NCBI GenBank assembly: GCA_026386845.1
Contig: JAPLMW010000060.1
Span: forward strand, 1-42,056
Origin: Phycisphaerae bacterium
Lineage (GTDB): Bacteria > Planctomycetota > Phycisphaerae > Sedimentisphaerales > UBA12454
Length of the DNA: 42,056 nucleotides
Reading direction: 5' to 3'
This document shows positions 1-26,462 of this stretch, piece after piece (positions within the stretch are counted from its first letter, which is position 1; every line of letters begins with the position of its first letter). Below the pieces are notes generated by a model. That model was not told the DNA's origin. It saw nothing but the letters and a program-made list of their open reading frames with translations, and did no database searches. Made by a program: the position numbers and the translations under genes.

Positions 1-1683
1 CAAATTGAGGCTGATGCCAAAAGGTCGATAGTGAAGGAACAGGCAAAAGCCCAGGAAACCATATCTGCTCTTAAAGCAGAAACTGATGCGAAGTCAAAGA
101 CTTACGAAGAAGAAATAGCGAAAATCAGGGCAGAGTCTGAAAAATCCATATCCAAAATTAAGACTGAGTCACAAGAGGCTGCTGCTAAGATCAGGACAGA
201 AGCAGATGAGAAACTTGCCGCCCAATTACAGCGGATAGCCAAAGCAGATGCTATAGCGGCATCAGAGGCACAGGCCAAAACTCAAGCCCAAGAGCATCTA
301 AGCAAAGAGAAGCTAAAGGCTGATGAATTGACCAGGAAGATAGCTGAAGTCAAATCAGAATCCGAGCGGTTGATATCCCAGGTCAGGACAGAAGCTCAGG
401 AGACTATCGATAGTGTCAGAGCTGAATCCGCCCAGAAAGAAAAGAGTTATGAGGAACGGATATCTCAAATTGAGGCAGAGGCCAAAAGGTCAATAGTGAA
501 GGAACAGGCAAAAGCCCAGGAAACCATATCTGCTCTTAAAGCAGAAACTGATGCGAAGTCAAAGATTTACGAAGAACAGATAGCAAAAATCAGGACCGAA
601 GCTGAAGAGAAGATGTCCAGTCTCAAATCTGAGTCTTCAGTTGAACTATCGCGTGTTAAATCAGAGGCACAGGATAGTATCAATAGACTTAAGACAGAAT
701 TTGCCGAGAAGGAAAAGGGTTATGAGGTACGTTTCTCTCAGGTTGAATTAGAATCAAAAAATTCGATAGCACGAGAGCAGTCAAAGGCAGAGGAAGCCAT
801 ATCTGCTCTTAAAGCAGAAACTGATGCGAAGTCAAAGATTTACGAAGAACAGATAGCAAAAATCAGGACAGAAGCTCAGGAGACTATCGAAAGGGTCAGA
901 GCTGAATCCGCCCAGAAAGAAAAGGGTTATGAGGAACGGATATCTCAAATTGAGGCAGAGGCCAAAAGGTCGATAGCACAGGAACAGGCAAAAGCCCAGG
1001 AAACCATATCTGCTCTTAAAGCAGAAACTGATGCGAAGTCAAAGACTTACGAAGAAGAGATAGCGAAAATCAGGGCAGAGTCTGAAAAATCCATATCCAA
1101 AATTAAGGCTGAGTCGGACCAGGCCGTTGCACAGATCAGGGCCGAAGCGGATGTGGCAGTTAGTAAAGCTAAAGAAGAAGCTGTAGAATCAACTGCGAAT
1201 GTCAGGGATGAGTTTAAAGAAAAAATATCAAATATGCAGGCAGAGGTTCGAGAAGCTATAATTGAAGTAATAATGGAAGAAAAGACCAAATCAAAGGAAA
1301 AGGAAAATGCCTATATTGAAATTATAGAGACTCTTAAGGCGGAATCTGCCCGCGTATCAAAAACCTATGAGGAAGAGATAGCAAAAATCAAGGCCGAGTT
1401 GGGAATGAAAATGGTAAGAATCAAGGTGGATGCCGACAATGCAATCGCCAAAGAACAAGTCAAAATAAAAGAGCAGGCCAGACAGATAGACGCCCTTAAA
1501 AACGAAATTCACGAAAACGCAACCAAAAATAATTTTAAATCCAGCCAGAAAGATTTTGTTAGCCGCAAACCTGTAAACCAGTCAAACCTCAGAAAATTCG
1601 CGGAAAAGCTTAGGAGCTATACTAAAACCAAAAAAATGGAGGGGGTGTTAAAAAATTCGCCTACGACTTCCAACAAACCGTAA
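1..1683 (+). CDS. Repetitive coiled-coil protein, 5' truncated by window edge
   Basis: The reading frame is open from base 1, so the gene begins outside the window; the GTG at 31 is only the first possible start codon inside it. About 560 codons are visible. The product is almost entirely charged helix rich in Glu, Lys, Ala and Gln with heptad character, expected to form a long coiled coil. Near-identical blocks recur: the segment encoding ISALKAETDAKSK begins at 61, 526, 799 and 1006, always in frame. The last 60 residues are more basic and less repetitive. No signal peptide, membrane segment or enzyme motif is visible in this part. It ends tail to tail with the minus-strand gene at 1661, overlapping by 23 bases. 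Function unknown; a structural or scaffold role is a guess, and such sequence resembles many unrelated coiled coils. Confidence 0.8.
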   Translation, partial: QIEADAKRSIVKEQAKAQETISALKAETDAKSKTYEEEIAKIRAESEKSISKIKTESQEAAAKIRTEADEKLAAQLQRIAKADAIAASEAQAKTQAQEHLSKEKLKADELTRKIAEVKSESERLISQVRTEAQETIDSVRAESAQKEKSYEERISQIEAEAKRSIVKEQAKAQETISALKAETDAKSKIYEEQIAKIRTEAEEKMSSLKSESSVELSRVKSEAQDSINRLKTEFAEKEKGYEVRFSQVELESKNSIAREQSKAEEAISALKAETDAKSKIYEEQIAKIRTEAQETIERVRAESAQKEKGYEERISQIEAEAKRSIAQEQAKAQETISALKAETDAKSKTYEEEIAKIRAESEKSISKIKAESDQAVAQIRAEADVAVSKAKEEAVESTANVRDEFKEKISNMQAEVREAIIEVIMEEKTKSKEKENAYIEIIETLKAESARVSKTYEEEIAKIKAELGMKMVRIKVDADNAIAKEQVKIKEQARQIDALKNEIHENATKNNFKSSQKDFVSRKPVNQSNLRKFAEKLRSYTKTKKMEGVLKNSPTTSNKP

Positions 1684-2191
1684 GAGTTTGGATGGCATTG
1701 TACTGGCCTGAATTCTCAGGGCATATTTTTTCTATTGAAGCTTTGACTGACAAAATAATCTCGACAGCCCCATCTGTAGGAATATGCACTATGTTTGCAC
1801 CTTCCTTAAGAAAGGTGTTAAACGAACACCATTCAGTTGGTTTGCCGCCTGTTTGTTCTATACCTGAGCCGTCAAATTTCAACTTATATTCAGTCAGGAG
1901 CGTGTACGGTCCAAATGACAATTCTGCACTATTACTGTTATCTGCTATGATGGTTACATCGCCATTAGTATAGAGCGTCAGTGCAGCATCGCTGGTGGCC
2001 TGCTTATTTCTGGCAGTAAGAACGCCCAAATCTATCTCCGGAAAGGATAGTTCTGACCATTCCACGATTTCCGCGACAGTACATGTTATTTTACATGTGG
2101 CGGTTGCGGGCGGCGGAACAGCCAAAGCCGGAACTGCTGCACCGCATAAAATGAACATTAACAATAAAATGGTGAATCTGCCGCTACTCAT
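1661..2191 (-). CDS. Small secreted beta-rich protein, paralogue A (pilin/coat-like)
   Basis: The 176-residue product has a clear signal peptide (residues 1-24, hydrophobic core ILLLMFILCGAAV, cut likely after ALA). The mature part alternates short beta-type strands. It shares a pattern with the genes at 2579 and 6222: an ATCxI...xxEW segment followed by FPxID near the start, then a TNxDV stretch, LLTEYKLKFDG in the middle, and an end of the form GxYxAxQTLTVxW. The three are therefore paralogues. I do not recognise a named family; subunits of surface fibres or coats have this size and shape. It lies alone on the minus strand, convergent with the coiled-coil gene, and has its own consensus promoter very close to the ATG. 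Confidence 0.75.
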   Translation of the reverse strand: MSSGRFTILLLMFILCGAAVPALAVPPPATATCKITCTVAEIVEWSELSFPEIDLGVLTARNKQATSDAALTLYTNGDVTIIADNSNSAELSFGPYTLLTEYKLKFDGSGIEQTGGKPTEWCSFNTFLKEGANIVHIPTDGAVEIILSVKASIEKICPENSGQYNAIQTLTVCWKS

Positions 2192-2578: not shown

Positions 2579-3172
2579 ATGAATAAGTTTGCCAGATTTT
2601 TATTACTAACGGCGATTTGTGTTATAGCAATCAGCTATAGCCCCATGCCGGTGTTCGGTGCGGATCCAGGAGATTCTGTGGCTACGTGTGCCATAACTGT
2701 AAGCGTTCTCTCGATTATAGAATGGGAAGGTGCGGCTTTTCCCGCTATCGACATCGATGCAGAATCTGCTGATGCTCCAATTGCCGCGCACGCCGATGAC
2801 CCGTGCGGCCATTCAGATTTCACGTTATGGACTAACTGCGATGTGGAACTTTCCGCTAATATTGCTGACAATGCCGCTCGCTTGACAGACGGCACCGATA
2901 CACTTGTAACAAAGTATAGGATACTGACCGACGGCGACGGAGACCCCTGTACCGGTGCCGACTCTACTGCTGTATCCGCCAGTGATTCAGATATCTTTAC
3001 TCTTTATAGTTCTTTTCTATTTGCACCGCTGGCCATAACCCATGTACCTACCGACGGTAGCGTTGAGGTTACATTGTGGGTACAGGCAACAAATGAGGCC
3101 GACGAGGTTTCAGACTCCGGTTCTTATACCGCAACGCAAACAATTACCGCCGCATGGGTCGACGATGACTAA
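2579..3172 (+). CDS. Small secreted beta-rich protein, paralogue B (pilin/coat-like)
   Basis: The ATG follows a good Shine-Dalgarno (AAGGAG, 7 bases upstream). The 197-residue product has a signal peptide (about residues 1-28, ending FGA). The mature chain is acidic, Thr/Asp/Ala-rich and strand-forming. It shares the paralogue pattern: ATCAITVSVLSIIEW, FPAIDID, LWTNCDV, DTLVTKYRILTDGDGD, ITHVPTDGSVEVTLWV and the terminal SGSYTATQTITAAW. Four Cys in the mature chain could form disulphides. It is the first gene of the apparent operon containing the PapD-like protein and secretin, 93 bases ahead of the former. The likely role is a structural subunit exported through that secretin; this is inferred from context only, as I recognise no family name. 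Confidence 0.8.
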   Translation: MNKFARFLLLTAICVIAISYSPMPVFGADPGDSVATCAITVSVLSIIEWEGAAFPAIDIDAESADAPIAAHADDPCGHSDFTLWTNCDVELSANIADNAARLTDGTDTLVTKYRILTDGDGDPCTGADSTAVSASDSDIFTLYSSFLFAPLAITHVPTDGSVEVTLWVQATNEADEVSDSGSYTATQTITAAWVDDD

Positions 3173-3265
3173 TTAAGATGATACTTAACCTGATTAGGAG
3201 CTAAGAATTTATTAAGCAGTAATTTATCTATCCGTAAGATAAAGGAATGCTGAAGGGATAAGGTT

Positions 3266-4573
3266 ATGAAAGGGAAATCACACATTTGTCGCCTTGGAGG
3301 AGCAGGGTTGATTGCCCTGTTCTTTTTTATTTTACAGGGGGTTTGTTTTGCCGGAATGGCGGTAAGTCCTCTGCAGCAGACAGTTGATGTCAAGCCGGGC
3401 AAAAAAGCTGCTTTCTCCATCACCGTATCAAATAACATAAGAGGCTCTAAAGCCCGCCCCTGTCCAATCAAAGTAAATGTGCTGGATTTTCAGGTTTCCG
3501 ATACCGGCCAGCTTCTCTTTGGTCCGGAATATAAACACCCCCGCTCCGCTGCGGCCTGGATAAAAATGGAACCAAATGAAATTGTTCTTCAGCCCGGCGA
3601 ATCCAGAGAAATGAAGGCAACAGTAACGGCGCCTATGAATGCCGATGGCGATTACTGGGCTGCCGCTATGATAGAACTTGGCGAACCCCAAAAGGGTGAA
3701 AAAGGCGTACAGGTTAAGCTGCGAACGGCTTCCGGCATATTTATACACGTGGCTCGCAGGAACTATGCTGAACGCGGAAACATTACTGATGTAAATGTTG
3801 CTATGCCGGAATTTGACGCAAATGATAATTCTATTGAGAAAAATGCATCAGAGGGGGAGCTTTATAAACTCAAAGAAAAGCAATCATTAAAAATTGAGGC
3901 GAAACTGAAAAATAATGGTTTGATAGCCATTTTAGCCAGGGGGAAAGCTTATGTTTATTCTGAAGACTGGCGCAAAATAGCGACCATTCCACTGCACGCA
4001 AGCCGCAGACAGGTTTTACCCGGCGACAATCGCTGGTTTAAAGGCATTATGGCGGAACCATTGCCTGCGGGAAACTATAAACTCCGCATATTTCTTGCTT
4101 CAGATGAAAAATTTAAACGTAAAATGACCAAAGATGCGGAATTTACAGTAAGTAGGGATTTGGCTGAGGTATGGGCGAAGAATTTTACAAATGACGGTAC
4201 AACAAAGCTGAAGTTTCAGCCGCAGCAGTTCAAATTGAAATTAAATCCCGGACGCCTTACAGCAGAGACAATACAGGTAACAAATCAGGGTCTGAATACC
4301 GTTACCGCCAATTGCCGGATTGAAGGCAATGGGACAAGTGATGATTGGATTGAACTGAAGACAACCGACCTTACGCTTGCTCCAAACAGCCAGAATTCAA
4401 TTACCTACAAAGTCAAAGTGCCATCTGATGCCAAACCGGGAACATATAATTGGACTATTCTTGTTGAAACAGAACATTCGGGACTGGAAAGTCAGGGACA
4501 AAATGTCGAACAATACAAAATCCCTGTTTTTCTTGTGATTGATAAAAACGCTCGTGTTATAACAGATAAATAA
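3266..4573 (+). CDS. Periplasmic Ig-fold protein, PapD-like chaperone candidate
   Basis: The 435-residue product has a signal peptide (residues 1-29, ending CFA). Residues 30-150 read like an Ig-fold of the pilus-chaperone type: VSPLQQTVDVKPGKKAAFSI, an AAAWIKMEPNEIVLQPG strand pair, then a TAPMNADGDYWAAAMIE strand. Residues 200-300 form a second beta domain with LKNNG and VLPGDNRWFKG turns. Residues 315-430 resemble a NEW3/COG1470-like Ig domain (RLTAETIQVTNQGLNTV, LTLAPNSQNSITYKV). At 435 residues it is nearly twice the length of a classical two-domain fimbrial chaperone. It sits between a secreted subunit-like gene and the secretin gene, 8 bases before the latter. A role in holding or escorting the secreted beta-rich proteins is inferred; a structural surface protein is the alternative. 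Confidence 0.75.
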   Translation: MKGKSHICRLGGAGLIALFFFILQGVCFAGMAVSPLQQTVDVKPGKKAAFSITVSNNIRGSKARPCPIKVNVLDFQVSDTGQLLFGPEYKHPRSAAAWIKMEPNEIVLQPGESREMKATVTAPMNADGDYWAAAMIELGEPQKGEKGVQVKLRTASGIFIHVARRNYAERGNITDVNVAMPEFDANDNSIEKNASEGELYKLKEKQSLKIEAKLKNNGLIAILARGKAYVYSEDWRKIATIPLHASRRQVLPGDNRWFKGIMAEPLPAGNYKLRIFLASDEKFKRKMTKDAEFTVSRDLAEVWAKNFTNDGTTKLKFQPQQFKLKLNPGRLTAETIQVTNQGLNTVTANCRIEGNGTSDDWIELKTTDLTLAPNSQNSITYKVKVPSDAKPGTYNWTILVETEHSGLESQGQNVEQYKIPVFLVIDKNARVITDK

Positions 4574-4581
4574 GAACGGCT

Positions 4582-6225
4582 ATGACATTGTTAATGACCA
4601 GACAAAATAAACGCAAAACCGCAGCAATGGTACTTTCAGCATTGCTGCTCGGTATATTCAGCTATCCTGCTGTTGCCGATGATATTAACGCCGGCTCTGC
4701 AGGTGCTAATGAAACTATATTGGTCAAAAACGTGTGGGTTGATGTGCCGCTGAGTCAGGTTCTTCGAGACATATCAGTTGAAAATGGCATCATTCTGGCT
4801 ACCTGTCCACATATACCTGACCCCCTCGTTTCGCTTGATGCCGGCAAGGGTAAGTCATTAGAGGAATGTCTTAATGATTTGATAGCGGGCCAGGGACTTT
4901 TCATTCATAAAAAAGGTGAGAAGTTCTACCTTATAGTTTGCGGCGACCCGACATGCCCGAGTACAATTGAAACTGTAACACCCTCCCCGCTTTACCTGAA
5001 GTATATAACGGCAAAGCATCTTCGAGACTCTCTGCCAAAATCTCTGCAGCAGTATGTAACCAGCGGAACCAGGGATAGTGAAGCTTTAATTTACGCGGTT
5101 CCGGATATTGAAAAACATATCGCAGACATTGTCCAGAAGCTGGATATCCCGCAGGAGCAGGTTATGCTGGAAGTGCTTGTTGTTGACCTTTGGGAAGGCA
5201 CAAGCGATGAATTTGGGCTGGATTGGGAAATTTTAGGCCCTCACACATCATTTAGTATGTCCGAAGGCGCTGCCGGTTTTACAGGCCTGGCAAGTTATGC
5301 AAGCGTAGCGGCCAGCAAATTAACTGAATTGAGTCTAACCCTTCGTGCGCTGGTTGCCGAGAAGCGGGCAAGCATAAGGTCCCGGCCAAGAGTAGCCACC
5401 CTTAACGGCGAAAAAGCTAAAATAGATATATCATTGGATGAGTATTACACGATAGCCACCGATCTTTACGGCACTTCTTTGCGGACCGAACTTGAGGTAA
5501 TCAAATCCGGCGTGATTCTGGAAATAACTCCGCATATCGGCGACAACGGAAATATCACTGTCGATGTGCTTACCGAAGTGAGCGATGTAGCTTCAAGGCG
5601 GAACGCATCCGGCAGCAGTACGGCCTCCGCTGCAGACCTTCCTGTAATCCGTCGCCGCAAAGCCGACACACGCGTCAGGGTAAAAGAAGGCGATGCGATT
5701 GTCATAGGAGGGCTTATTGAGACCCAGGAAAACACTAACCACAAGCGCGTTCCATTGGCCGGCGATATCCCCATCATAGGCGGCCTTTTCAAAAGCAAAG
5801 CAGACACCACAACAAAAAAGGAAGTGATGATTTTTATTACTCCGCAGTTGATAAAGGATGGAGAAGTCGCTCTTTCCGACCGTCACTCATTGATTAATGA
5901 ACCCAACGAAATTGGGAAGTTACGCGCCCCTGCGTTTTATGCACGAAAGGAAAATGACAAAAAGCTGCGTAACACAAAGGATGAAATTAAATCTCTAAAC
6001 GAGATAGTTAATCTGCTTGATAGTTCAAAGCAGCCGGGAAACATCTCACAAAAAATAAATGATGTGAATTTGTCTTACCCCGGTAATCCGCTTGAATCAG
6101 ACCAGGAGCGTCAAGTGCTGCAAGAGGTAATCACCCTGCTCGATGTTAAAAATGAACAGATGCCTCCGATGACAGCAACACCGAAAAATAAGAATGACGC
6201 TTCATTGGGAGTTATTGGCAAATGA
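4582..6225 (+). CDS. Outer-membrane secretin (type II/III secretin family)
   Basis: The 547-residue product has a signal peptide (to about residue 32). Residues 45-120 look like an N0/STN domain and 130-190 like one N1-type secretin domain (SPLYLKYITAKHLRDSLP, YAVPDIEKHIADIVQKLDIP). The secretin beta-barrel domain spans about 195-424, with SRPRVATLNGEKAKI, VIKSGVILEITPHIG, VKEGDAIVIGGLI, the hallmark VPLAGDIPIIGGLF (390-403) and a KKEVMIFITPQLI end. A hydrophilic tail of about 120 residues follows. Having a single N1-type repeat makes it short for a GspD. No GspE/PilB ATPase or platform gene is near. It overlaps the next gene by 4 bases (ATGA), indicating translational coupling. An alternative ATG at 4594 would also keep the signal peptide. 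Confidence 0.92.
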   Translation: MTLLMTRQNKRKTAAMVLSALLLGIFSYPAVADDINAGSAGANETILVKNVWVDVPLSQVLRDISVENGIILATCPHIPDPLVSLDAGKGKSLEECLNDLIAGQGLFIHKKGEKFYLIVCGDPTCPSTIETVTPSPLYLKYITAKHLRDSLPKSLQQYVTSGTRDSEALIYAVPDIEKHIADIVQKLDIPQEQVMLEVLVVDLWEGTSDEFGLDWEILGPHTSFSMSEGAAGFTGLASYASVAASKLTELSLTLRALVAEKRASIRSRPRVATLNGEKAKIDISLDEYYTIATDLYGTSLRTELEVIKSGVILEITPHIGDNGNITVDVLTEVSDVASRRNASGSSTASAADLPVIRRRKADTRVRVKEGDAIVIGGLIETQENTNHKRVPLAGDIPIIGGLFKSKADTTTKKEVMIFITPQLIKDGEVALSDRHSLINEPNEIGKLRAPAFYARKENDKKLRNTKDEIKSLNEIVNLLDSSKQPGNISQKINDVNLSYPGNPLESDQERQVLQEVITLLDVKNEQMPPMTATPKNKNDASLGVIGK

Positions 6226-6767
6226 GATTGATAAACAGACATATTGTTAGCGTAGTATTGGCACTGACCTTTCTGTCAACGGTTATATGCGACGCTGAGA
6301 AAGCATACAAGTGGCAGTCCAATTTTCCCAATATTGACCTCGATGCACAGTCTGAAGATGCTCCAATTGTCGAGCACGCTGATGCCCCGGAAGGCAGTGC
6401 TACTATTACTTTGGATATAGTAGATATAAATGTTACTGAAGCTGTAATCACCGCTGACCATACCACAAATGAACCTCAGTTACATTGCGCAACCGATACC
6501 CTTGTTACTGAATATATGCTGTCATTCGACGGTGATGGTTCCAGCAAAAGCGGCCCCACTGTCGAGGCAGTAGCTGCCAGTGGTTCAAATACTTATAAAA
6601 CTTACGATACTTTCCTATCGATACCTTTAGTCATAACATACGCAAACAATGACAATGATATACAAGTAACTCTACACGTTAAAGCAAGCAACAATGAGGA
6701 TAAAGTAGCTGATTCTGGGAACTATGAAGCCACTCAAACTCTTACAGTCGCCTGGGGGGGATATTAA
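6222..6767 (+). CDS. Small secreted beta-rich protein, paralogue C, shortened N-terminus
   Basis: The 181-residue product has a signal peptide (about residues 1-24). The mature chain begins directly at KWQSNFPNIDLDAQSEDAPI and so lacks the first strand-forming segment (ATCxITVxVxxIIEW) of its two paralogues. From there on it aligns well with paralogue B: DTLVTEYMLSFDGDG, YKTYDTFLSIPLVITY, DIQVTLHVKASN and the terminal SGNYEATQTLTVAWGG. Nucleotide similarity to the 2579 gene is also evident around the IDLDA...EDAPI stretch, pointing to a fairly recent duplication. The start overlaps the secretin stop by 4 bases. It is probably a minor or capping subunit of the same structure, by inference. Confidence 0.78.
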   Translation: MRLINRHIVSVVLALTFLSTVICDAEKAYKWQSNFPNIDLDAQSEDAPIVEHADAPEGSATITLDIVDINVTEAVITADHTTNEPQLHCATDTLVTEYMLSFDGDGSSKSGPTVEAVAASGSNTYKTYDTFLSIPLVITYANNDNDIQVTLHVKASNNEDKVADSGNYEATQTLTVAWGGY

Positions 6768-6769
6768 CT

Positions 6770-7366
6770 ATGAAAAAAGATGCTAACAAAACCGTTTTGC
6801 AGGAACTACAGCAGGTTCTATCTCTTGAAGAATCGATTCTTGATTCGCTGACAACTCCTGACGTCGCCGCAGAAGTCGCAGAGCTTATAGAAGACCCTGA
6901 AAAATATGAGAAAAAACCGGAGGTGAACAGAATCGCCCGGAACAACAATCTCCTTTTGGGAATTATAACCGACCAGGCCAGGGTTAAATTTGTTTGGCAG
7001 TGTATTACCGCGTGCCTGGTGATATTTGTCATAACAGCGTCTTTTATTTGCTTTAGTCTCTATAAGAGCCGTGAGAATCTGGTTGAAAAACTCGGCGTAA
7101 TTAAAACCCTTGAAAAGAAACTGGAAGAAGCCAAAGCTGAAACTGACAGCGTCAAGGCCAATGTAATTAGTTCCAACACAGAACTCAAATACGCTCAAAG
7201 TGAATTGAACAACTCAAGAACTGAGATAAAAAAGCTGCAAGACCAGTTAGCCGATATTACGCAGCGATTTGAAGCTCTTCAGGAACGTAATGCCGAAGTA
7301 GTGAAATTGCTTAACGGACGACTTCAAAAACTCTCAAACCAATCCAGCCAGACTGCCCCCAAATAG
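6770..7366 (+). CDS. Single-pass inner-membrane protein with periplasmic coiled coil
   Basis: The 198-residue product has an acidic cytoplasmic N-terminus of about 78 residues, one hydrophobic helix (about 80-102, including ITACLVIFVITASFICFSL), and a C-terminal coiled coil to about residue 185 (LEKKLEEAKAETDSVKANV, ELNNSRTEIKKLQDQLADI). The start lies 2 bases after the stop of paralogue C, so it belongs to the secretin operon. By topology it could link the inner membrane to the secretin or the chaperone-like protein, as GspC- or PilP-like parts do elsewhere, but no sequence match to those is visible. Function otherwise unknown. No clear terminator follows. Confidence 0.75.
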   Translation: MKKDANKTVLQELQQVLSLEESILDSLTTPDVAAEVAELIEDPEKYEKKPEVNRIARNNNLLLGIITDQARVKFVWQCITACLVIFVITASFICFSLYKSRENLVEKLGVIKTLEKKLEEAKAETDSVKANVISSNTELKYAQSELNNSRTEIKKLQDQLADITQRFEALQERNAEVVKLLNGRLQKLSNQSSQTAPK

Positions 7367-7458: not shown

Positions 7459-7488
7459 TTGACAAAGGTCGCTATAATTTAGTATAAT
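7459..7488 (+). promoter_or_regulatory. Consensus sigma-70 promoter
   Basis: TTGACA (7459-7464), an 18-base spacer and TATAAT (7483-7488) are a perfect pair of hexamers. Transcription would start near 7495, about 77 bases before the lipoprotein ATG at 7572. Confidence 0.8.
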
Positions 7489-7571: not shown

Positions 7572-8012
7572 ATGTATAAACAGTTTTTTCTATTGACACT
7601 GCTTCTGGCGGAATTGTTTCTTGTCGGATGCGCAAAAATAAAACTTGGCGACCCGGCAGCCCTGCCCGGCTTTGGCGAAAAATTCTGCGATACGGCTACC
7701 CCGCCTGCTTGTGTCCAAAAATGCGGCGAGCCGGCAGAAATTATTCTCCCTCCAAAATTCAAGAACGGCGATATCGTAAGACACAAAATGCTAAAGGATG
7801 ATATGCTGGGTATTATTATGCAGTGCGATTATAAATATATACCTCGCTTAAAAACGTATTACTGCATAGTGGATTTCTACCCTTCCTCAGCCATACATAT
7901 TGACTTTTCTAATTTTGACGACTACGAGCGAAGATATGTCTATGAGTATGAGTTGATAAAAGAACCCTTAATTCCCGCAAGATGGGACTGGAGATGCGAT
8001 AATCAGGAATAA
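7572..8012 (+). CDS. Lipoprotein of unknown function
   Basis: The ATG at 7572 is chosen because AAAGGAGG lies just upstream; an in-frame TTG at 7551 would run through that Shine-Dalgarno. The 146-residue product starts with a lipoprotein signal ending LFLVGC, so Cys20 should be lipidated. The mature protein contains several Cys (CDTATPPACVQKCGEP) and a segment KFKNGDIVRHKMLKDDMLGI typical of small SH3-like folds that open with 'F..GD.V', followed by aromatic-rich strands. I recognise no named family. It is monocistronic, with its own promoter and leader hairpin, and faces the CheC/CBS gene tail to tail. Confidence 0.8.
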   Translation: MYKQFFLLTLLLAELFLVGCAKIKLGDPAALPGFGEKFCDTATPPACVQKCGEPAEIILPPKFKNGDIVRHKMLKDDMLGIIMQCDYKYIPRLKTYYCIVDFYPSSAIHIDFSNFDDYERRYVYEYELIKEPLIPARWDWRCDNQE

Positions 8013-13901: not shown

Positions 13902-14135
13902 TTACACACAATAATCAATAGAATGCTTATCCTGGTCATTTTCATCAATTTCGTTGCCGATGTCTTCTTTGCCTGATTCGTTTAGTTCGTCTTTAGCAGG
14001 TTCATGTTGCCGGTTTTCCTGCTTATTTAAGTTCTGCCGTTTCTTTTTTTCGTCGCGGGGTTCTGCAGGTGTTAAGCCTGTGATGTTTTGGTGACTTTCC
14101 ACTGGTTTTACTATATTGTAATTATCATCTGTCAT
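13902..14135 (-). CDS. Small hydrophilic protein downstream of fliA
   Basis: The 77-residue product is strongly charged (EPRDEKKKRQNLNKQ, ESGKEDIGNEIDENDQD) and probably disordered. Its start lies 11 bases inside the end of fliA, typical of a coupled gene. There are no Cys clusters, signal or membrane segment. Low-complexity composition means it could be a fortuitous frame, but the overlap and the lack of another candidate favour a gene. Function unknown. Confidence 0.5.
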   Translation of the reverse strand: MTDDNYNIVKPVESHQNITGLTPAEPRDEKKKRQNLNKQENRQHEPAKDELNESGKEDIGNEIDENDQDKHSIDYCV

Positions 14136-14928
14136 ATTTCCACTGCCTCAATTTTACAGACAAATTAAATAAAGCGCTTGCGTGCAGTTGACTAACACGC
14201 GGTTCCGTAATGTCGAAAACCTCAGCTATCTGCTTCATTGTCAACTCCTGCTGATAATAAAGTATAATAATCTGTCGCTGTCTCTCATTCAATTGCTGGA
14301 TAGCTTCGGTTAGTTTATCTACAAGCTCGTTTTGTTCGAGCTGCTGATCCGGGGCAAGCGTATTGGTTGCTGCCAGAGAGGCACCCAGTGAAGGCATGTC
14401 TTCCGGCGAGCTATCGATTGAAATAAAATGTTTGGTCCGGGCATTTTCGAGCGTTTGATAAAGTTTATCAACGGTTATCTGCAGTTTCTCAGCTAACTCT
14501 TCCTCATTAGGCACTTTGCCTGTTTGATTAGTGATTTCCAGACTCATTTGAGTAGCTTCGCGAATTTGCTTTTCCACATTAGCCGGCAGCAAAGAGAAGT
14601 TTCTCAGCTCATCGAGAATAGAACCTCTGATTCTTATATAAGCATAGGTTTTGAACTCGGCCTGAAGTGATGGGTTGTAATCTCGGGCAGCCTTAATCAG
14701 GCCGACAGCCCCTGCGGAGACTAAGTCATCATACGACAATGGAGGCTTTATATACGTTACTGCCCGCTGAACTATTTTATGCACCATAGGAAGAAACTGC
14801 GTTATCAGTTCGTTGTCGATGGACTCTTTTTTTTGGCCATCGTACGCATTCCTGGCACGGGTTTTCAAATGCTCCTTGTTATCTTCGGCAAGTTGCTTTG
14901 GGAAAGGTTTTTTAGTTTCTACTGTCAT
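14125..14928 (-). CDS. fliA: Flagellar sigma-28 factor FliA
   Basis: The 267-residue product has all regions of a sigma-28 factor: region 2 (FLPMVHKIVQRAV, SYDDLVSAGAVGLIKAARDY, EFKTYAYIRIRGSILDELR), region 3 (PANVEKQIREATQMSLEI) and region 4 with the helix-turn-helix (LTMKQIAEVFDITEPRVSQL). It directs RNA polymerase to late flagellar genes and is held by FlgM. It lies in the same long operon as the switch and export genes, so early sigma-54 transcription would make it. It overlaps the small membrane protein upstream by 17 bases and the gene downstream by 11. Confidence 0.95.
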   Translation of the reverse strand: MTVETKKPFPKQLAEDNKEHLKTRARNAYDGQKKESIDNELITQFLPMVHKIVQRAVTYIKPPLSYDDLVSAGAVGLIKAARDYNPSLQAEFKTYAYIRIRGSILDELRNFSLLPANVEKQIREATQMSLEITNQTGKVPNEEELAEKLQITVDKLYQTLENARTKHFISIDSSPEDMPSLGASLAATNTLAPDQQLEQNELVDKLTEAIQQLNERQRQIIILYYQQELTMKQIAEVFDITEPRVSQLHASALFNLSVKLRQWKYDR

Positions 14929-15157
14929 TGACTTTTCCCTTTTGCTGGCTCATCTGATCCTTTATTATCGCATTTATCAAAATGGCATTAATTGCTTTTA
15001 CAGCCAGAGATGTTGCTATATACACAATTATCGCTGCTGCCAGAGCCCTCTTACAACAGGTAAACGGTAAAAGGCCGCTAATCCAGCCAATGACAGCTAT
15101 ACCGAAGAAACATATAACAGCAACACTCACCGAAATTGATCTGACATGTAACGGCAT
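14912..15157 (-). CDS. Small two-helix membrane protein between flhA and fliA
   Basis: The 81-residue product has two hydrophobic helices (about 5-30 and 36-62) and a short charged C-terminal tail (KDQMSQQKGKVNDSRN). It sits where many bacteria have flhF and flhG. It starts 42 bases after flhA and overlaps fliA by 17 bases. No family is recognised. A role at the export gate is possible from position alone. Confidence 0.65.
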   Translation of the reverse strand: MPLHVRSISVSVAVICFFGIAVIGWISGLLPFTCCKRALAAAIIVYIATSLAVKAINAILINAIIKDQMSQQKGKVNDSRN

Positions 15158-15199
15158 AATCAGCTAATCCTTTTTGTTTTATTGCATCTATTTTTCACA

Positions 15200-17335
15200 T
15201 TACGCCAAAGCTCCGACAAGTTCCTGTTTCTGGGGCATCATTTTATTAGAAGTCTGCTGAAGGGATACGGTTTCTATCGGTTCTATTTCGGTCCCGAGTA
15301 CGATTTCATTATAAGCTATCACCGGCAGCGGCGGAACTGTTCGCGACAGCATCGTCGCCAGAGGCAGGCGCAACCTTGAATCACACAGCAAAACCGTTTT
15401 TTCAGCGCCTTTGTCCATCGCCGTTTTCCAGGCCTGTGCTACGTTGGTATTTATAGCCATTGTCGTTTCGGTCGGCAGAGCAAGATTAAGCGAATCCGCC
15501 TCCTGACGCAAATTTGAAGTCATCTGGTGTTCCAATGCCGGTTCCAGTGTTATAGCTGAAATTTTACCATTTCGATCTTTGTACTGTTCCGTAATAGTTC
15601 TGGCCAAGTGTTTCCGAACCACTTCGGTTAAAATATCGGTATTTTTCGTTTTTGAAGCGCATTCTCCCAGCGATTCAAGTATGATGGACAATTCACGGAT
15701 TGGTATTGCATTTTTCAAAAGGTTTTTAAGTACCCGTTGAAGTGTTCCAATAGGCACGAGTTCGCCAACGACCTCACCGACCAATGACGGCTGAGTTTTG
15801 CGAAGCCGGTCAACAAGAAGCTGCACGTCTTCACGAGTCAACAATTCATCGGCATGTTTTTTCAGCGTTTCCGATAGATGGGTAATAAAGACCGATTCAG
15901 GGTCAATCACGGTATATCCACTGAGTTCAGCTTTTTCCTTGTCAGATTCCGCTATCCACAAAGCCGGCAGACCATAAACAGGTTCGGTGGTTTCCATGCC
16001 CTTTACTTTGGTTTGAACAGCGCCGGAATCCATGGCGAGAAACATATTTGGCTCTAATTGTCCCCGGGCTACAGCATGGTCGAAAAGCCTGATTTCATAA
16101 GCGTTTGACTCGATGTTGATATTGTCTCTTAGGCGGACCAGCGGCATAATAATGCCGAGCTGCTGGGCAAATTTTCTCCTCAGAGCCCCAATACGATCGA
16201 AGATAGTACTGTTTTTACGAGGGTCGACCAGGCTGATCAATCTTACGCCTACCTGCACAGAAATTCTATCTACATCCAGCATATCCTCAACTGGTTGTTT
16301 CTGGGTTTTTGCTGTTTGTGATGGTATTTCACTTTTCTTCGCATCGCTTTTTTCAGATTTCGCTACTATTCGCCCTGTAACGGCGGCACCTGCAGCCAAC
16401 AATAAAAACGGTATTGAAGGCAGCCCCGGGACCAGAGCCATGGCAGCTATGATGAAAGCTGCTATCGTCAGCGGTTGTGAAGTTCTCAGAAATTGCCTGG
16501 ACAAATCCTGACCGACGCTGCGGCTTGAGGAGATTTTAGTTACCAAAAAACCGGAACTTATGGAGATTATCATTGACGGTATCTGGTTGACAAGTCCGTC
16601 ACCTATGGAAAGAATAGAATAAGTTTTTACGGCATTGCCAATTGCCATGCCGCGTGAATAACCGATGGCTATTCCGCCAATGATATTAATGGCAGTAATT
16701 ATGATTCCGGCTATGGCATCGCCACGAATAAATTTACTGGCACCATCCATTGCACCATAGAATTCGCTTTCCTTGACAATTTTCGTCCTGCGTTCATTGG
16801 CCTGGGCGTCTGTAATAGCTCCGGCATTGAGGTCTGCATCAATTGCCATTTGTTTGCCGGGCATCGCATCAAGTGTAAATCTCGCGGAAACTTCGCTTAT
16901 TCGCTCAGCGCCTTTGGTAACCACTACGAATTGTATAATGAAAAGGATTAGAAAAATTACCAGTCCGACAACGAAACTGCCGCCGGCGACGAATTCACCA
17001 AAGGTCTGGATGATTCTTCCGGCATCGCCCTGCAGTAATATCAATCTTGTGGAAGCCACGTTAAGCGAAAGTCGAAACAAAGTTACGAAAAGAAGCAGTG
17101 AAGGAAACGTAGATAATTCAAGGGCCTCTTTTGAGAATATGGTAATTATTAAAACGGATATAGCCAGCGACAGACTACAGGCCAGGAGCATATCCAGTAA
17201 TGGTGTAGGCATGCGGACTAACAGGGTGGCAAGAACTGTTACCATGCCTAAAGACAAAATAATATTGCTGCGTGAACTTACAGCCGTATTAAGCGGCTCA
17301 GGCCTTGATAAACTTGATTTGTCAGAAATTGCCAT
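15200..17335 (-). CDS. flhA: FlhA, flagellar export gate protein
   Basis: The 711-residue product is full length for FlhA. The first half has eight predicted membrane helices (from about residue 24 to 325). The FHIPEP signature ISEVSARFTLDAMPGKQM is present at 146-163 in the cytoplasmic loop. The C-terminal cytoplasmic half from about 350 carries the docking domain for export chaperones. FlhA uses the proton gradient to pass rod, hook and filament subunits through the export gate. The other gate genes (flhB, fliP, fliQ, fliR) are not in this window. It follows fliN by 34 bases. Confidence 0.97.
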   Translation of the reverse strand: MAISDKSSLSRPEPLNTAVSSRSNIILSLGMVTVLATLLVRMPTPLLDMLLACSLSLAISVLIITIFSKEALELSTFPSLLLFVTLFRLSLNVASTRLILLQGDAGRIIQTFGEFVAGGSFVVGLVIFLILFIIQFVVVTKGAERISEVSARFTLDAMPGKQMAIDADLNAGAITDAQANERRTKIVKESEFYGAMDGASKFIRGDAIAGIIITAINIIGGIAIGYSRGMAIGNAVKTYSILSIGDGLVNQIPSMIISISSGFLVTKISSSRSVGQDLSRQFLRTSQPLTIAAFIIAAMALVPGLPSIPFLLLAAGAAVTGRIVAKSEKSDAKKSEIPSQTAKTQKQPVEDMLDVDRISVQVGVRLISLVDPRKNSTIFDRIGALRRKFAQQLGIIMPLVRLRDNINIESNAYEIRLFDHAVARGQLEPNMFLAMDSGAVQTKVKGMETTEPVYGLPALWIAESDKEKAELSGYTVIDPESVFITHLSETLKKHADELLTREDVQLLVDRLRKTQPSLVGEVVGELVPIGTLQRVLKNLLKNAIPIRELSIILESLGECASKTKNTDILTEVVRKHLARTITEQYKDRNGKISAITLEPALEHQMTSNLRQEADSLNLALPTETTMAINTNVAQAWKTAMDKGAEKTVLLCDSRLRLPLATMLSRTVPPLPVIAYNEIVLGTEIEPIETVSLQQTSNKMMPQKQELVGALA

Positions 17336-17369
17336 TACGATTTATTCTCAAAAGCAGAGTTTGTTTTGA

Positions 17370-17777
17370 TTATTCCTTGTTCGCTGCCGCAGCCGCAGCG
17401 GTACCAGCGCTGAGAATTTCCTTTATTCTGACAGCGAACTTATCTTCCACTACAACAATATTTCCGGTAGCAAACCTGGTATCTTTAAGATACAAATCTG
17501 CCGGCGCCTCAATGGGTTTATCGAGCTTCAATACCGAACCCTGTCCAAGCTGCAGGAACTTCTGTATCGGTATCTCGATTTGCCCGATAACGACTGCAAC
17601 AGGAACCTCCATATCCAGCAAAATGTCAATACTTGTGCCTGGTGTGGTTTTGCCTTCCGGTGCCTGCGAATATTCCACAGATTGCGCTTGTGCTTTGGGG
17701 TTTTCCTGAGCAGATTGGTTTTGCTGAGCCTGCTGTTCTTCAATTTTCTCTTCTACAGCTTGTGTTGTTTCTGCCAT
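17370..17777 (-). CDS. fliN: FliN, C-ring switch protein
   Basis: The 135-residue product has a Gln/Ala-rich N-terminal extension (to about residue 46) and then a SpoA/FliN domain: SIDILLDMEVPVAVVIGQIE, IQKFLQLGQGSVLKLDKPIE, ATGNIVVVEDKFAVRIKEIL. FliN forms the base of the C-ring with FliM and binds FliH at the export apparatus. It follows fliM by 45 bases and precedes flhA. The length is usual for FliN. Confidence 0.95.
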   Translation of the reverse strand: MAETTQAVEEKIEEQQAQQNQSAQENPKAQAQSVEYSQAPEGKTTPGTSIDILLDMEVPVAVVIGQIEIPIQKFLQLGQGSVLKLDKPIEAPADLYLKDTRFATGNIVVVEDKFAVRIKEILSAGTAAAAAANKE

Positions 17778-17822
17778 ATTTTTTCCCTTCTAATTGTCAA
17801 ATTTTGTAAAACGATTTATGTT

Positions 17823-18782
17823 TTATTTTGCACTGCATAGCTCTGTAATTACCATAGCGCGCTTACCATCAGATTTTGCAAGCCGGCCGCGAAGTACGGT
17901 TTTGCTTCCGATAATCATCTCAACCGGTTCATTTACTTTTTTATCAAGCAGCAATATGTCATCAACCTGCAGGTTCATTATTTCCTGAAAATTAAACATT
18001 GCATGAGCCAATTTTACCGTAACAGAAATCGGCATACCCTGAAGATGGTTAAATAATGCTTTCGAGATATTTTGGGCAGAGACATTTTCACCTGTTTCCA
18101 CTTTTAGCCCTGCAATAGCCTGCAGTTTGTCGCATAATATTAAAAAATAAGCTTCAGATGCGTTTCCCGAATCGGATTTTTTGACACTGACAGTGATTTT
18201 GCAAATTTCTTCGGCGTCACCGATTTGAAAGGGTATTTTGCCTTTGACAATTTCCCCGGTCGGTTTCAAAACGTAATTATCATGGGAATCCGAAAGAACT
18301 CCGATAACACCGAAGGCAATATCAAACAGGATAGACTGCTCTAATTGCGATAACTCCCTGTCAGTATTTTCTGCAGATTTGCTGTCGCCGAGTAATTGCG
18401 TCACCCAGAGGATTGCGGTTTTGGCCGGTATTCCAATAAGGCCGAATGTCTGGTCTTTAGCGCCGAAACCAAGATAATAATCGTTTTGATTATTGCCAGA
18501 GGCAGTGATCTCGCCGGCAAAATGTTGTGTAGTGGAAGCAATAGTCACATTAAAATCGCTACGATAAAGCTGAGTAAATTTTTCAGCACATTTCTTCGCC
18601 ACTTCCCCTGTGAAATCACTAAGTTTTTTGAGTTGCTTCTGACCAAAATAATGGGATTGCCGCCAATTATATTCAGGCGCATCCGTATTTTGTCTGATAT
18701 CTTCTTTAGGCCTGGCCCCGACAGCGGCAAGAAGCTGCTGTATTTTTTCCCTGGTCAAACTGTGATTTGCCGTATTACTCAT
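17823..18782 (-). CDS. fliM: FliM, C-ring switch protein
   Basis: The 319-residue product has the FliM layout: a short N-terminal helix, a middle CheC-like domain (about 40-230, YLGFGAKDQTFGLIGIPAKT) and a C-terminal SpoA domain (about 245-315, LDKKVNEPVEMIIGSKTVLR). FliM receives phosphorylated CheY and passes the signal to FliG. The usual N-terminal CheY-P peptide (LSQxEIDALL) is altered here to LTREKIQQLL. It overlaps fliL by 4 bases. Confidence 0.92.
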   Translation of the reverse strand: MSNTANHSLTREKIQQLLAAVGARPKEDIRQNTDAPEYNWRQSHYFGQKQLKKLSDFTGEVAKKCAEKFTQLYRSDFNVTIASTTQHFAGEITASGNNQNDYYLGFGAKDQTFGLIGIPAKTAILWVTQLLGDSKSAENTDRELSQLEQSILFDIAFGVIGVLSDSHDNYVLKPTGEIVKGKIPFQIGDAEEICKITVSVKKSDSGNASEAYFLILCDKLQAIAGLKVETGENVSAQNISKALFNHLQGMPISVTVKLAHAMFNFQEIMNLQVDDILLLDKKVNEPVEMIIGSKTVLRGRLAKSDGKRAMVITELCSAK

Positions 18783-19456
18783 TGTATATTAAATTCCCTG
18801 ATAAGGATTTTCTTGATTTTCGGTTTATCGCCAGGAAAAAGATTCTCATTAAAAGCGTCACATATTTGTAACAGAATACGTTTCATGTCTCTGTCATTTT
18901 GCATTTCACCAAGAGTCAGACTCTTAAAGTAAAGATTAAGCCAATTTACCAAAAGAGGTTTCTTGGTATCAATAAGCTCTTTGGCCTTCTCTTGACTTAA
19001 TTCAGAGCTTATCTCTAATGTCAGGCCTACCCGTACAAAGCGTGTTGCGCCTGGTTCATCAGGATTTACCACAACGGATTCCAACTCGTTGTAATACCAA
19101 GTGTCAGCAAGGCCGGCTTGCGAATTCTCTGATTTCACTTCTTCTGTTTTTTTGCCTTCTTTCTTGCTTCCGTGCGCACTTTCTTTTTTATCTTCTTTCT
19201 TACTTTCCTTCTTGTGCTCTTGTGTGTTTTCCTGAGAAGATTCGGCTGTCTCTGGCGAGGGCGAGAAAGAGCCGGCCAATAACCGACCAAGTGCAAAACC
19301 GGAACCTGCGAAAAGAACTACAACAACTGCCATTATCAGCCACATCAGGATGCCGGTTTTTGCCCCGGTTTGCTGGGGTTTTTCGCTTTTTTCTGGTTTT
19401 GCCGCTTCGGCTTCTGGTTTTTTCACTTCTTTATTTTTTTCATCTTTATCTGCCAT
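18779..19456 (-). CDS. fliL: FliL, stator-associated membrane protein
   Basis: The 225-residue product has a charged cytoplasmic N-terminus, one membrane helix (about 33-57, ILMWLIMAVVVVLFAGSGFA), a long Ser/Glu/Lys-rich linker (70-115) and a C-terminal FliL domain (WYYNELESVVVNPDEPGATR, FVRVGLTLEISSEL, IKKILIREFNIQ). FliL rings surround the stator units and affect torque. The linker is longer than usual. No motA or motB is in the window. It follows the sigma-54 activator by 32 bases and overlaps fliM by 4. Confidence 0.93.
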   Translation of the reverse strand: MADKDEKNKEVKKPEAEAAKPEKSEKPQQTGAKTGILMWLIMAVVVVLFAGSGFALGRLLAGSFSPSPETAESSQENTQEHKKESKKEDKKESAHGSKKEGKKTEEVKSENSQAGLADTWYYNELESVVVNPDEPGATRFVRVGLTLEISSELSQEKAKELIDTKKPLLVNWLNLYFKSLTLGEMQNDRDMKRILLQICDAFNENLFPGDKPKIKKILIREFNIQ

Positions 19457-19488
19457 TTTTTTACCTCAGCTATTTTAAACAGCGGTTA

Positions 19489-21018
19489 TCAAGCTAACTG
19501 CAATTCACCTTTCTGGTGATAACGACGGATTTTGCTTCGTAAGGTTCTGTCACTGATACCCAGTATCTTTGCAGCCTTTGTCTGATTACCACCGGTATTG
19601 CCCAGCGTATCCAAAATCACTTGTCTCTCTACCTGGTCAAGGGGCAGGCCGGCCAGTTCTGAAACTGGTGTTTGGCCGTTACTAATTGACAAGGTATTTT
19701 CCTGCGGGAGCGGCTGCAGTTCATCGAAAAGCCATGAGACATCAGCTAAAGACAGCTTTGGTCCAGTTCCCAGAATTAATGATGTCAGCACAACATTTCG
19801 TAATTGCCGAATATTTCCGGGCCAATGATATTTTGCAAAAATATTCATCATCGCCGGATCAAGTCCGGTGATGTAACGCTGTGCCTGCCGCGCATAAAAG
19901 TTTACGAAATGCCAAACGAGGTCGGACAAATCCTCACTGCGTTGTCTCAGAGGTGGGATAATTAGTCTAACCCCACACAATCGATAGTAAAGATCCTGAC
20001 GAAATCTGCCTTCGGCAACCTCTGATAACAAGTCCTTATTGGTAGTACTTATTATTCGCACATCGACCCTAATGCTGTCATTTCCTCCGACACGTTCAAA
20101 ATCCTGCTGTTCAAGCACCCGCAATAGTTTTGCCTGGAACTTTATAGGTGTTTCTGCGATTTCGTCCAGGAGCAAAGTTCCACCGTGCGCCATCTCGAAT
20201 CGCCCCTTACGCTGAGCATAAGCGCCGGTGAAGGCACCTTTTTCATGGCCAAAGAGTTCACTTTCAAGCAGTGAATCGGTTAATGCAGCACAATTAACTC
20301 TCACATACGGTCCCCGTGTCCTTTTACTGTGCAGATGAATAAGGAAAGAAATCAGTTCTTTGCCTGTTCCGCTCTCGCCACATATCAAAACCGGTGCTGA
20401 AGTAGGAGCTATTTTTTTAGCCAAATTAATAGTTTGGATTAATTTTGCACTTTTTCCCACTATTGTGAAGAGAGGCTGGATACCCTGCTGGACACAGTCG
20501 GCTGTTGCAATATGGTGATTTGGCAGGAAGCTATCCAGCAGATTTTCAATTTTTTCACGGTCGAGCGGCTTTATCAGGAAATTACAGCAGCCTGCATTGA
20601 CGGCTTTGACGGCTATGTCAAGCAATTGCTGCTGGTTTTGAGATTTTTGGTTTTGAGTATCGCATATCATAATTACCGGCATCTCCGGTGAATTTACCTT
20701 AATTTCACGAACCAACTTGAAATCATCTTCGGACTGATTTATTTTGGTGACACTGAATACAAGGTCATAATTATTCTTGTCGAGAAAATCGACAACGGTT
20801 TTTTCACTGCCGGCAACAGTCCCGCGAATGCCTTTGCGAGCTAAAATCTCAAGTATAAATCGAGTCGATTCCTTGTCATTGTCAACTACCAGTACGTTTG
20901 CAACAAAGCTCCTGTTTTGCGGCTCATTGCAAAAAGGAATACATATCCGATCTTTTTTATTAATTGGCTCTATGTTATTTATTTCGCTTTTATTCACTTC
21001 TTGGATACCTCTTTCCAT
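19489..21018 (-). CDS. Sigma-54 activator with degenerate receiver, FleQ/FlrA-like
   Basis: The 509-residue product has a receiver-like domain (40-165), an AAA+ domain (about 185-415) and a Fis-type helix-turn-helix at the end (NQTKAAKILGISDRTLRSKI). The AAA+ part is complete: Walker A GESGTGKE (214-221), GAFTGA (261-266) for contact with sigma-54, Walker B GGTLLLDE (279-286). In the receiver the phospho-acceptor Asp is replaced (YDLVFSV; Val90 where Asp is expected), so phosphorylation there is unlikely. It lies inside the operon driven by the sigma-54 promoter at 24683, which suggests positive autoregulation. As a FleQ-like activator it would turn on the flagellar sigma-54 promoters. Confidence 0.92.
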   Translation of the reverse strand: MERGIQEVNKSEINNIEPINKKDRICIPFCNEPQNRSFVANVLVVDNDKESTRFILEILARKGIRGTVAGSEKTVVDFLDKNNYDLVFSVTKINQSEDDFKLVREIKVNSPEMPVIMICDTQNQKSQNQQQLLDIAVKAVNAGCCNFLIKPLDREKIENLLDSFLPNHHIATADCVQQGIQPLFTIVGKSAKLIQTINLAKKIAPTSAPVLICGESGTGKELISFLIHLHSKRTRGPYVRVNCAALTDSLLESELFGHEKGAFTGAYAQRKGRFEMAHGGTLLLDEIAETPIKFQAKLLRVLEQQDFERVGGNDSIRVDVRIISTTNKDLLSEVAEGRFRQDLYYRLCGVRLIIPPLRQRSEDLSDLVWHFVNFYARQAQRYITGLDPAMMNIFAKYHWPGNIRQLRNVVLTSLILGTGPKLSLADVSWLFDELQPLPQENTLSISNGQTPVSELAGLPLDQVERQVILDTLGNTGGNQTKAAKILGISDRTLRSKIRRYHQKGELQLA

Positions 21019-21029
21019 AGTTAAAAGGC

Positions 21030-22028
21030 TTACAATTTGCGTTCGTTTATCAGCGTATTAGGTTTTTCTTTCAGATACCAATCGATTAATCTGCTTTTGG
21101 CTTCGGCCAAATCTACCCATGGTGAATCGGGGCATTCCACAATTAGCTGTTTATACATTTGCGTTGCGGTTGGCGGGTCATCCTTTTGCAGGCAGTTGCC
21201 TATTTGAAATAAAATCCAGGCCTTATCTTCATGCCGGCCATTCTCATTTGCAGTCATGAGTTTTAGAGCTTCCTGATAACATTTTGCCGCTTCTTTCAGT
21301 TGGTTGCTGCGGAACAGAATCTCAGCCAACTCAAGGGGATTTTTTATCTGTTGGGGCTGCTGCGAGAGCTGTTCGAATATTTGCAGGGTCTGTTTTGTTA
21401 TCTGTCCGCGTAGCAGTTGTTTTTCATCTTGTTGCCCACTGCCGAGCGATTTCTGCGGCATAGTCTCGGGTTTTCCAGGTTTAGTCTTTTTCGGCATATC
21501 TGTGTTAGACAAAGCTTCATTGGATTCGGCTGTCTTGGCAGGCTCGACAACAATAAGAGGTTCTAAGGTTCGATCCTGTGGTTTAAATTCTACGGAACTG
21601 ATTTGTTTAATTATCTGTTGAAGTTCATTTTTGCTTTGGCTGGATTTATCGTCTTCGGAGACACTAATTCTGGCCTGCCACAGTTGGCGGCCCAGGTCGG
21701 TTACAGGACTTTTTGCGATTAGTAAATCCGATGGTTTTTTGTCAACCCTGGCGGCTAAGTTTGCGGCTATATTACTGTTGATGCCGGAAGAAGCTTTTGG
21801 GTGCTCCGAAATATTCAATGTGTTTATATCCTGGATGCCCGGCGATAAAGAAGATTCCAGAAGACTAATCGGGTCAATATCTTCCGATAAGGTTTCTGCA
21901 TACACAAAAGGAGTCAATATACAAACAACTAAAAACGAAAGGCAAAGTCTGAAACGTAAAGTTAGAGAACTTTTACACTCCGGGTTATCAAATTGCTCTG
22001 AAATTTTGTTTTTGACCGTCACTTCCAT
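21030..22028 (-). CDS. Secreted protein with C-terminal TPR-like repeats
   Basis: The 332-residue product has a signal peptide or anchor (about residues 25-44, FRLCLSFLVVCILTPFVYA), a long low-complexity middle (45-215, rich in Ser, Gln, Pro, Lys) and C-terminal TPR-like repeats (PLELAEILFRSNQLKEAAKC, AWILFQIGNCLQK, ATQMYKQLIVECPDSPWV). It overlaps the large TPR gene by 10 bases. It likely works in the periplasm with that protein. Function unknown; placement at the head of the flagellar operon suggests an assembly role. Confidence 0.72.
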   Translation of the reverse strand: MEVTVKNKISEQFDNPECKSSLTLRFRLCLSFLVVCILTPFVYAETLSEDIDPISLLESSLSPGIQDINTLNISEHPKASSGINSNIAANLAARVDKKPSDLLIAKSPVTDLGRQLWQARISVSEDDKSSQSKNELQQIIKQISSVEFKPQDRTLEPLIVVEPAKTAESNEALSNTDMPKKTKPGKPETMPQKSLGSGQQDEKQLLRGQITKQTLQIFEQLSQQPQQIKNPLELAEILFRSNQLKEAAKCYQEALKLMTANENGRHEDKAWILFQIGNCLQKDDPPTATQMYKQLIVECPDSPWVDLAEAKSRLIDWYLKEKPNTLINERKL

Positions 22029-24604: not shown

Positions 24605-24682
24605 AGCATCTAACTTTTAGTCCAAATGTAATGTCTGCCAGCCTGAATTCAGAGCGCATTGCAGGACCTTTCTTACATTACA

Positions 24683-24698
24683 GCAATACTTGTGCCAG
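24683..24698 (-). promoter_or_regulatory. Sigma-54 promoter of the minus-strand flagellar operon
   Basis: On the minus strand the sequence reads CTGGCACAAGTATTGCTG: TGGCAC (24697-24692), 5 bases, TTGC (24686-24683). Transcription would start near 24671, 67 bases before the ATG of the large TPR gene. Confidence 0.82.
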
Positions 24699-26305: not shown

Positions 26306-26373
26306 TCGCTGTATCCCGGAGTCTTCTTGTTGTTTGGGGGTATCTCATATTTTATCAAAGGGATGTTTTCATC

Positions 26374-26426: not shown

Positions 26427-26462
26427 CTGTTAATCGACAAGTACATCGAACAACTTTAATTA

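Follow-up and report, generated by a model that had tools for sequence, protein, structure and literature searches.

A planctomycete gene cassette pairing a chaperone-like protein with a secretin suggests an undescribed way of putting protein polymers on the cell surface

Introduction

Ushers and secretins represent separate export logics, the former based on strand exchange without an energy source and the latter on ATPase-driven platforms. The window analysed here, a stretch of 42,056 nucleotides from a Phycisphaerae bacterium, carries a cassette in which a chaperone-like protein is encoded together with a secretin and small secreted proteins, and an earlier note, made from the sequence alone, proposed that their products form one export machine. 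The question raised by this locus is whether subunits of the chaperone-usher kind may leave the cell through a secretin. Our main reading, to which we assign a probability of about 55%, is that the cassette encodes an usher-less, chaperone-dependent export or assembly pathway for donor-strand subunits via a secretin. If a conserved unit of strand-lending chaperone and secretin does exist, the outer-membrane gate would be exchangeable and a secretin may work without a platform. In planctomycetes, outer-membrane pits with attached 12-nm fibres have been termed enigmatic, and their genes are unnamed (PMC5394234). Given that the species with pits and fibres belong to another class, a link to these fibres is a lead only; the cassette supplies concrete candidate genes. 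A literature search restricted to open-access papers, and hence no proof of absence, found no description of a chaperone-plus-secretin system.

Results and discussion

Layout of the cassette

The window spans an entire contig from a 2.4-Mb assembly (96% complete), and its nearest named relatives are Planctomycetes MAGs, one of them of Sedimentisphaerales, an order of Phycisphaerae. The five open reading frames lie where the earlier note placed them, all on the forward strand, and both the ATGA overlap (6222-6225) and the 2-base gap (6768-6769) are as it described. These two junctions bear out the tight packing it reported, but the first gene (2579) is packed less tightly, since 93 bases separate it from 3266. 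The gene set has a further member outside these five, a subunit paralogue on the reverse strand, and the locus reads as follows.

31-1683, forward strand: 3' portion of the gene for a giant coiled-coil protein, truncated by the contig start and convergent to bA; homologues in relatives.
1661-2191, reverse strand: bA, third subunit paralogue, divergent from the cassette, with a signal peptide and the N-terminal alternating strand ATATCKITCTVAEIVEW; alignment and own-genome profile search.
2579-3172, forward strand: b1 subunit, with a signal peptide, the N-terminal strand SVATCAITVSVLSIIEW and a predicted pilin-like fold; AlphaFold model, Foldseek and alternation table.
2681-2725, forward strand: codons for residues A35-W49 of b1, its putative donor strand; hydrophobic residues at -6, -8, -10, -12 and -14 from W49.
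3266-4573, forward strand: periplasmic chaperone-like protein, with WxLIP/chaperone-usher-chaperone-like domains 1-2 and a NEW3-type domain 3; Pfam, model and Foldseek.
4582-6225, forward strand: secretin with a short periplasmic part and a C-terminal extension; Pfam Secretin 3.3e-42, chaperone-linked clade (99/96).
6222-6767, forward strand: b2 subunit, a paralogue that lacks the N-terminal strand and is a candidate for the end (tip) position; alignment and hhalign.
6770-7366, forward strand: accessory inner-membrane protein with one TM segment and a coiled coil; orthologues in the corresponding position in relatives.
7572-8012, forward strand: lipoprotein (lipobox LVGC), possible pilotin; conserved in loci L016 and L021.

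The cassette contains neither an usher nor an ATPase, in line with the earlier note, and the product of 6770 has one TM segment and a coiled coil, as expected for the inner-membrane coiled-coil protein it described. Orthologues of 6770 occupy the same place in L016-L019, L021, L022, L031 and L032, with a longer version in L043, and are absent from the other lineages among the compared loci. Homologues of the giant coiled-coil protein, of 1452-1664 aa, are found at the same place in L016 and L021, and split or partial in L022, L017 and L031. A structured attenuator between 2579 and 3266 was ruled out, the fold of this stretch not being unusual (z -0.38).

A promoter scan detected a perfect sigma-70 consensus (TTGACA, 18, TATAAT) at 7459-7488, upstream of the 7572 lipoprotein gene. 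The contig also carries flagellar genes at 14125-29436 (FlhA, FliN-type, FliL and FlgE-type), together with two sigma-54 activators and one sigma-70 family factor.

Conservation across Planctomycetota

The earlier note proposed looking for the same gene order in other genomes, and it recurs in many. The order subunit-chaperone-secretin-b2 is present in seven relatives, most of them also with 6770, while in an eighth the contig stops after the chaperone. Of 15 named contigs from GTDB genomes, several from the same genomes, most show it too. Chaperone homologues were detected in 39 of 397 genomes in a class-wide search, and beyond the class a phylum-wide search added seven genomes from five families, nearly all genomes compared being MAGs. 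Counting each locus once and taking an E-value below 4e-70 as strong, the chaperone gene is directly followed by a same-strand secretin gene in all 45 strong Planctomycetota homologues whose downstream sequence is long enough, that of the window among them (for four more the contig ends too early), and these homologues range down to 16% identity with the window's chaperone. Because the gene order recurs in seven relatives and the chaperone-secretin pair in 45 of 45 loci, the cassette is more than a chance arrangement, and its conservation across and beyond one planctomycete class suggests an undescribed way of putting protein polymers on the surface. The weaker chaperone homologues, which are mixed, some lying next to a secretin and others often not, count against the main reading.

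The gene 3' of the secretin varies by lineage, being b2, mostly with 6770, in the window's group, a TPR-type lipoprotein of ~340 aa in families f16, f13, f11 and f36, and a lipoprotein of ~155 aa in f7. TadD, a lipoprotein, is the pilotin of the Tad secretin RcpA (PMC10499894), and by this analogy a pilotin role is likely for the lipoproteins encoded after the secretin. Just 3' of the cassette in one Phycisphaerae MAG (L036:5605-9009), we also observed a gene whose 1134-aa product combines a hydrazine synthase alpha middle domain with a Laminin_G domain.

The chaperone-like protein

The product of 3266 had been described as a three-domain PapD-like Ig protein. Its model (pLDDT 81.6) is beta-rich and consistent with three domains, and a PapD likeness is indicated at the fold level by compact Foldseek matches to CfaA (6k73/4ncd, TM by target 0.58-0.60) and CsuC (0.51-0.52), but it does not extend to the sequence, for which Pfam gives no PapD family match, the PDB no sequence match, and WxLIP is the closest family. 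The WxLIP_PGBD match (3.8e-8, residues 41-128) scores 33.8 bits against a cut-off of 27.3, the WxLIP_HBD match stays just under its own (26.8 vs 28.9 bits), and an NPCBM_assoc/NEW3 domain follows at residues 328-398 (1.6e-8). Among 19 homologues, WxLIP_PGBD was found in 13 and NPCBM_assoc in 17. Ig-repeat proteins lead the Foldseek matches by E-value and superpose poorly (rmsd about 20-35), a point against the main reading; the WxLIP of Enterococcus faecium (9i25) is a compact match, with an rmsd of 6.5-7.9 and a TM by target of 0.51-0.57. Mean column identity in the wide chaperone alignment is 29%, and thus no single-residue claims are made across the family.

Of the three outcomes that the earlier note named as damaging to its proposal, none was observed; one of them was a match of 3266 to a known surface protein. 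The protein is WxLIP-like, and strand donation has been proposed for WxLIP too, which according to prediction completes WxL by inserting a strand (PMC10599100). This likeness opens an alternative in which the locus encodes a WxL-like surface complex and no fibre, with 3266 remaining bound to each subunit to complete its sandwich and the secretin doing no more than release the complex or its parts. Apart from the sequence family and the match of the model to the WxLIP-WxL structure 9i25, such a scheme would fit the make-up of WxL loci, in which two WxL proteins, one small and one large, are likewise encoded with a WxLIP (PMC10599100). However, no C-terminal membrane anchor was seen in 3266, the identification of the subunits as WxL proteins was rejected, with a family match in 0 of 37, and the donor-like strands of two subunits (see below) would be needless if the partner were permanent. 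We therefore consider a complex of this kind quite improbable.

Subunit family, fold and donor-strand pattern

A profile search of the window's own genome finds exactly three subunits (2579, 6222 and 1661, the last with an E-value of 3.4e-70), and hhalign relates both bA and b2 to b1 with a probability of 100, which supports the earlier view of 6222 as a second secreted paralogue of 2579. The bA gene is at the same place in five of the first eight relatives. Searches against Pfam, where nothing was convincing, NCBIfam and PDB sequences gave no identification of the subunits, and no cassette protein has a Pfam Fimbrial or PapD match above the cut-off.

The best PDB matches of the b1 AlphaFold model (pLDDT 90.1, pTM 0.74) in Foldseek are chaperone-usher pilins, namely FimF, CfaB, PapE, the PapG pilin domain, CsuA/B and FimA, at ~10% identity and E-values of 1e-3 to 1e-2 (best 1.3e-3, TM by query 0.45). 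These values are modest and Ig-like folds are common, which weighs against the main reading. The TasA fibre is also among the matches (8aur, rank 10), and the subunits might instead be exported singly through the secretin, serving as a door, and polymerise outside like TasA with TapA, the chaperone keeping them apart until then. Strand complementation between TasA and TapA needs no usher (PMC10151520). Chaperone-usher pilins nevertheless score better in Foldseek, and although sequence alone cannot separate polymerisation outside the cell from the main reading, we give it only a very small chance.

In b1, residues ~20-46 form no strand in the predicted model. Counting back from a conserved W, each of the 15 b1 and 8 bA sequences has hydrophobic residues at positions -6, -8, -10, -12 and -14, whereas such residues never occur at -7 and are rare at -9 and -13. 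A strictly alternating hydrophobic strand is the pattern of the N-terminal extension of chaperone-usher pilins, and the N-terminal strand of b1 and bA resembles such a donor strand, making it a putative participant in strand exchange. The b2 sequences, in contrast, miss ~17-20 residues ahead of the conserved W, and with them the alternating strand. Two subunit types are also encoded in distant loci (L078, L082, L088, L089, L091 and L119-L121), w1 with the strand (strong at -6, -8, -10 and -12, weak at -14) and w2 without it, and profile comparison joins w1 to b1 (99.4) and w2 to b2 (97.4). The subunits of family f7, tried as relatives of b1 and b2, were dropped since profile comparison detected no relation; the donor-strand rule is shown for b1, bA and w1, and the case of f7 counts against the main reading. 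Given that the tip subunit of chaperone-usher pili is the one without a donor strand, b2 is a candidate end subunit, most likely the distal tip.

The secretin and its clade

The product of 4582 is unequivocally a secretin, as claimed (Pfam 3.3e-42, residues 256-425). The single N1-type repeat ascribed to it is plausible, with a Secretin_N match in the L043 orthologue (4.2e-6 at 131-188), but Pfam makes no such call in the window protein. In a tree of 66 secretin domains, the 46 chaperone-linked ones lie on one side of a single branch (99/96), and none of 500 label shuffles gave a split as low. Of the 45 strong loci, 41 are represented among the 46, the remaining four having been excluded as truncated or near-identical to another row, and five weaker loci (L101, L102, L121, L125 and L126) make up the rest; the 20 secretins outside this group come from G000, G001, G004 and G022 (19 secretins) and G217 (one), nearly all of these being the same or sister genomes. 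By its domain sequence, the cassette secretin is a dedicated clade apart from the other secretins; as some end branches are long, the inner order of the tree is not relied on.

Chaperone-linked secretins come in two forms, a short one (about 430-650 aa) and, in family f7, a long one (1140-1290 aa). Several CarboxypepD_reg-like repeats precede the secretin domain in the long f7 form (L026:2808-6518, L074:7724-11152, L075, L083 and others). At L078:10617-13940, within 14 kb of sequence that also includes a cassette, another long secretin (1107 aa) is encoded, which falls outside the cassette clade. One cassette (L039) was found in a bin named Candidatus Freyarchaeota archaeon; its contig is probably misbinned, because its secretin falls inside the planctomycete clade.

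Usher, ATPase and platform genes elsewhere in the genomes

A search for an usher encoded elsewhere, with the Pfam usher profile (PF00577), found none in 37 genomes with chaperone homologues (nine cassette genomes and 28 more), an E. coli control being positive. Most of these genomes have a secretin beside the chaperone; G527 has only a weak homologue and no secretin next to it, and in G735 the two genes stand in the opposite order, secretin first. The only weak usher match, below the cut-off, was in G004, a genome without the cassette.

This match (25.8 bits, cut-off 27.1) is to a 1151-aa protein with CarboxypepD_reg near its C-terminus, encoded with a remote 296-aa chaperone homologue and two small secreted proteins (L024:7252-13717, contig G004:C12). 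This locus of a sister genome may be a chaperone-usher one that has diverged. In G527 (L124:3587-9582), genes for four small secreted proteins and for a remote chaperone homologue of 279 aa are followed by two overlapping ORFs (436 and 560 aa), which may be one protein with a frameshift; as in the L024 protein, CarboxypepD_reg is present in the second of them.

GspE ATPase and GspF platform genes had no match on the 42-kb contig among the matches listed and were found elsewhere in the genome only. The secretin might work with a T2SS or type IV pilus platform encoded elsewhere; the subunits would then be substrates of the T2SS type, exported in the folded state, and 3266 would assist either them or the secretin, with no donor-strand polymer. 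Such genes are at hand, T2SSE being plentiful in all 25 genomes searched and T2SSF present in all 15, with and without the cassette; a T2SSE/T2SSF set lies ~7 kb from the cassette in G001 and G012, and the periplasmic domains of the cassette secretin are of an ordinary kind. However, the set in G001 has its own secretin, and the cassette secretins form a separate clade. In G323 and G373, whose assemblies are single contigs, every T2SSE among the matches listed is more than 190 kb away from the cassette, and dependence on a nearby T2SS was rejected, such a set being close only in G001 and G012. Among the same matches, T2SSF is as common in relatives without the cassette, and therefore the platform does not co-occur only with the cassette secretin, an association that the earlier note had singled out as damaging to its proposal. 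A borrowed platform would also leave the donor-strand pattern unexplained, and we regard it as unlikely.

Proposed mechanism

Under the main reading of an usher-less pathway, bA, b1 and b2 would enter the periplasm by Sec, where the 3266 chaperone would bind their incomplete beta-sandwiches, probably lending a strand to each. They would then exit through the dedicated secretin 4582, placed where the usher stands in chaperone-usher systems, and polymerise through donor-strand exchange, in which b1 or bA would insert its N-terminal strand into the groove of its neighbour. Lacking this strand, b2 could take only an end position. The 6770 protein may tether the periplasmic entrance of the secretin to the inner membrane. 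Donor-strand exchange in chaperone-usher pili requires no energy source, which would explain the missing ATPase. The conserved gene set, the predicted folds, the alternating strand and its loss in b2, the secretin clade and the lack of Pfam ushers are observations, whereas the joint machine, strand lending and exchange, the route through the secretin and the fibre are inferred. The broader proposal, a new 'chaperone-secretin' class of surface-polymer pathway in which donor-strand subunits are exported or assembled via a dedicated secretin, without usher or ATPase, and which is possibly related to the planctomycete fibres, is tentative, with chances somewhat short of even.

Comparison with known systems

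The cassette resembles the chaperone-usher pathway (FimC/FimD, CfaA, Csu) in the predicted fold of its putative periplasmic chaperone, in small secreted subunits with a predicted pilin fold and in an N-terminal alternating strand in all but one subunit type. It differs in having a secretin in the place of the usher and a chaperone with a third domain, a WxLIP-like sequence and no PapD or Fimbrial Pfam match above the cut-off; as the usher was looked for and not found, the cassette is not a member of this family. An outer-membrane secretin is common to the T2SS, type IV pilus and Tad systems (GspD, PilQ, RcpA), and the TPR lipoprotein 3' of the secretin in some cassette lineages recalls the pilotin TadD. 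Unlike these systems, the cassette lacks an ATPase, a platform and type IV pilins, and its secretin clade is separate; since ATPase and platform are unlinked to the cassette, it does not belong to the T2SS/type IV pilus family either.

The Gram-positive WxL/WxLIP (DUF916-DUF3324) clusters likewise encode a WxLIP-like protein with small beta-sandwich proteins, for which strand completion has been proposed, but the cassette consists of signal-peptide proteins of a two-membrane cell with a secretin, its subunits have no WxL match and 3266 has no visible C-terminal TM anchor. The donor-strand fibres of Bacillus TasA/TapA would share with the cassette a strand-complementation polymer made without an usher, whereas they have no chaperone of the 3266 fold, no outer membrane and no secretin.
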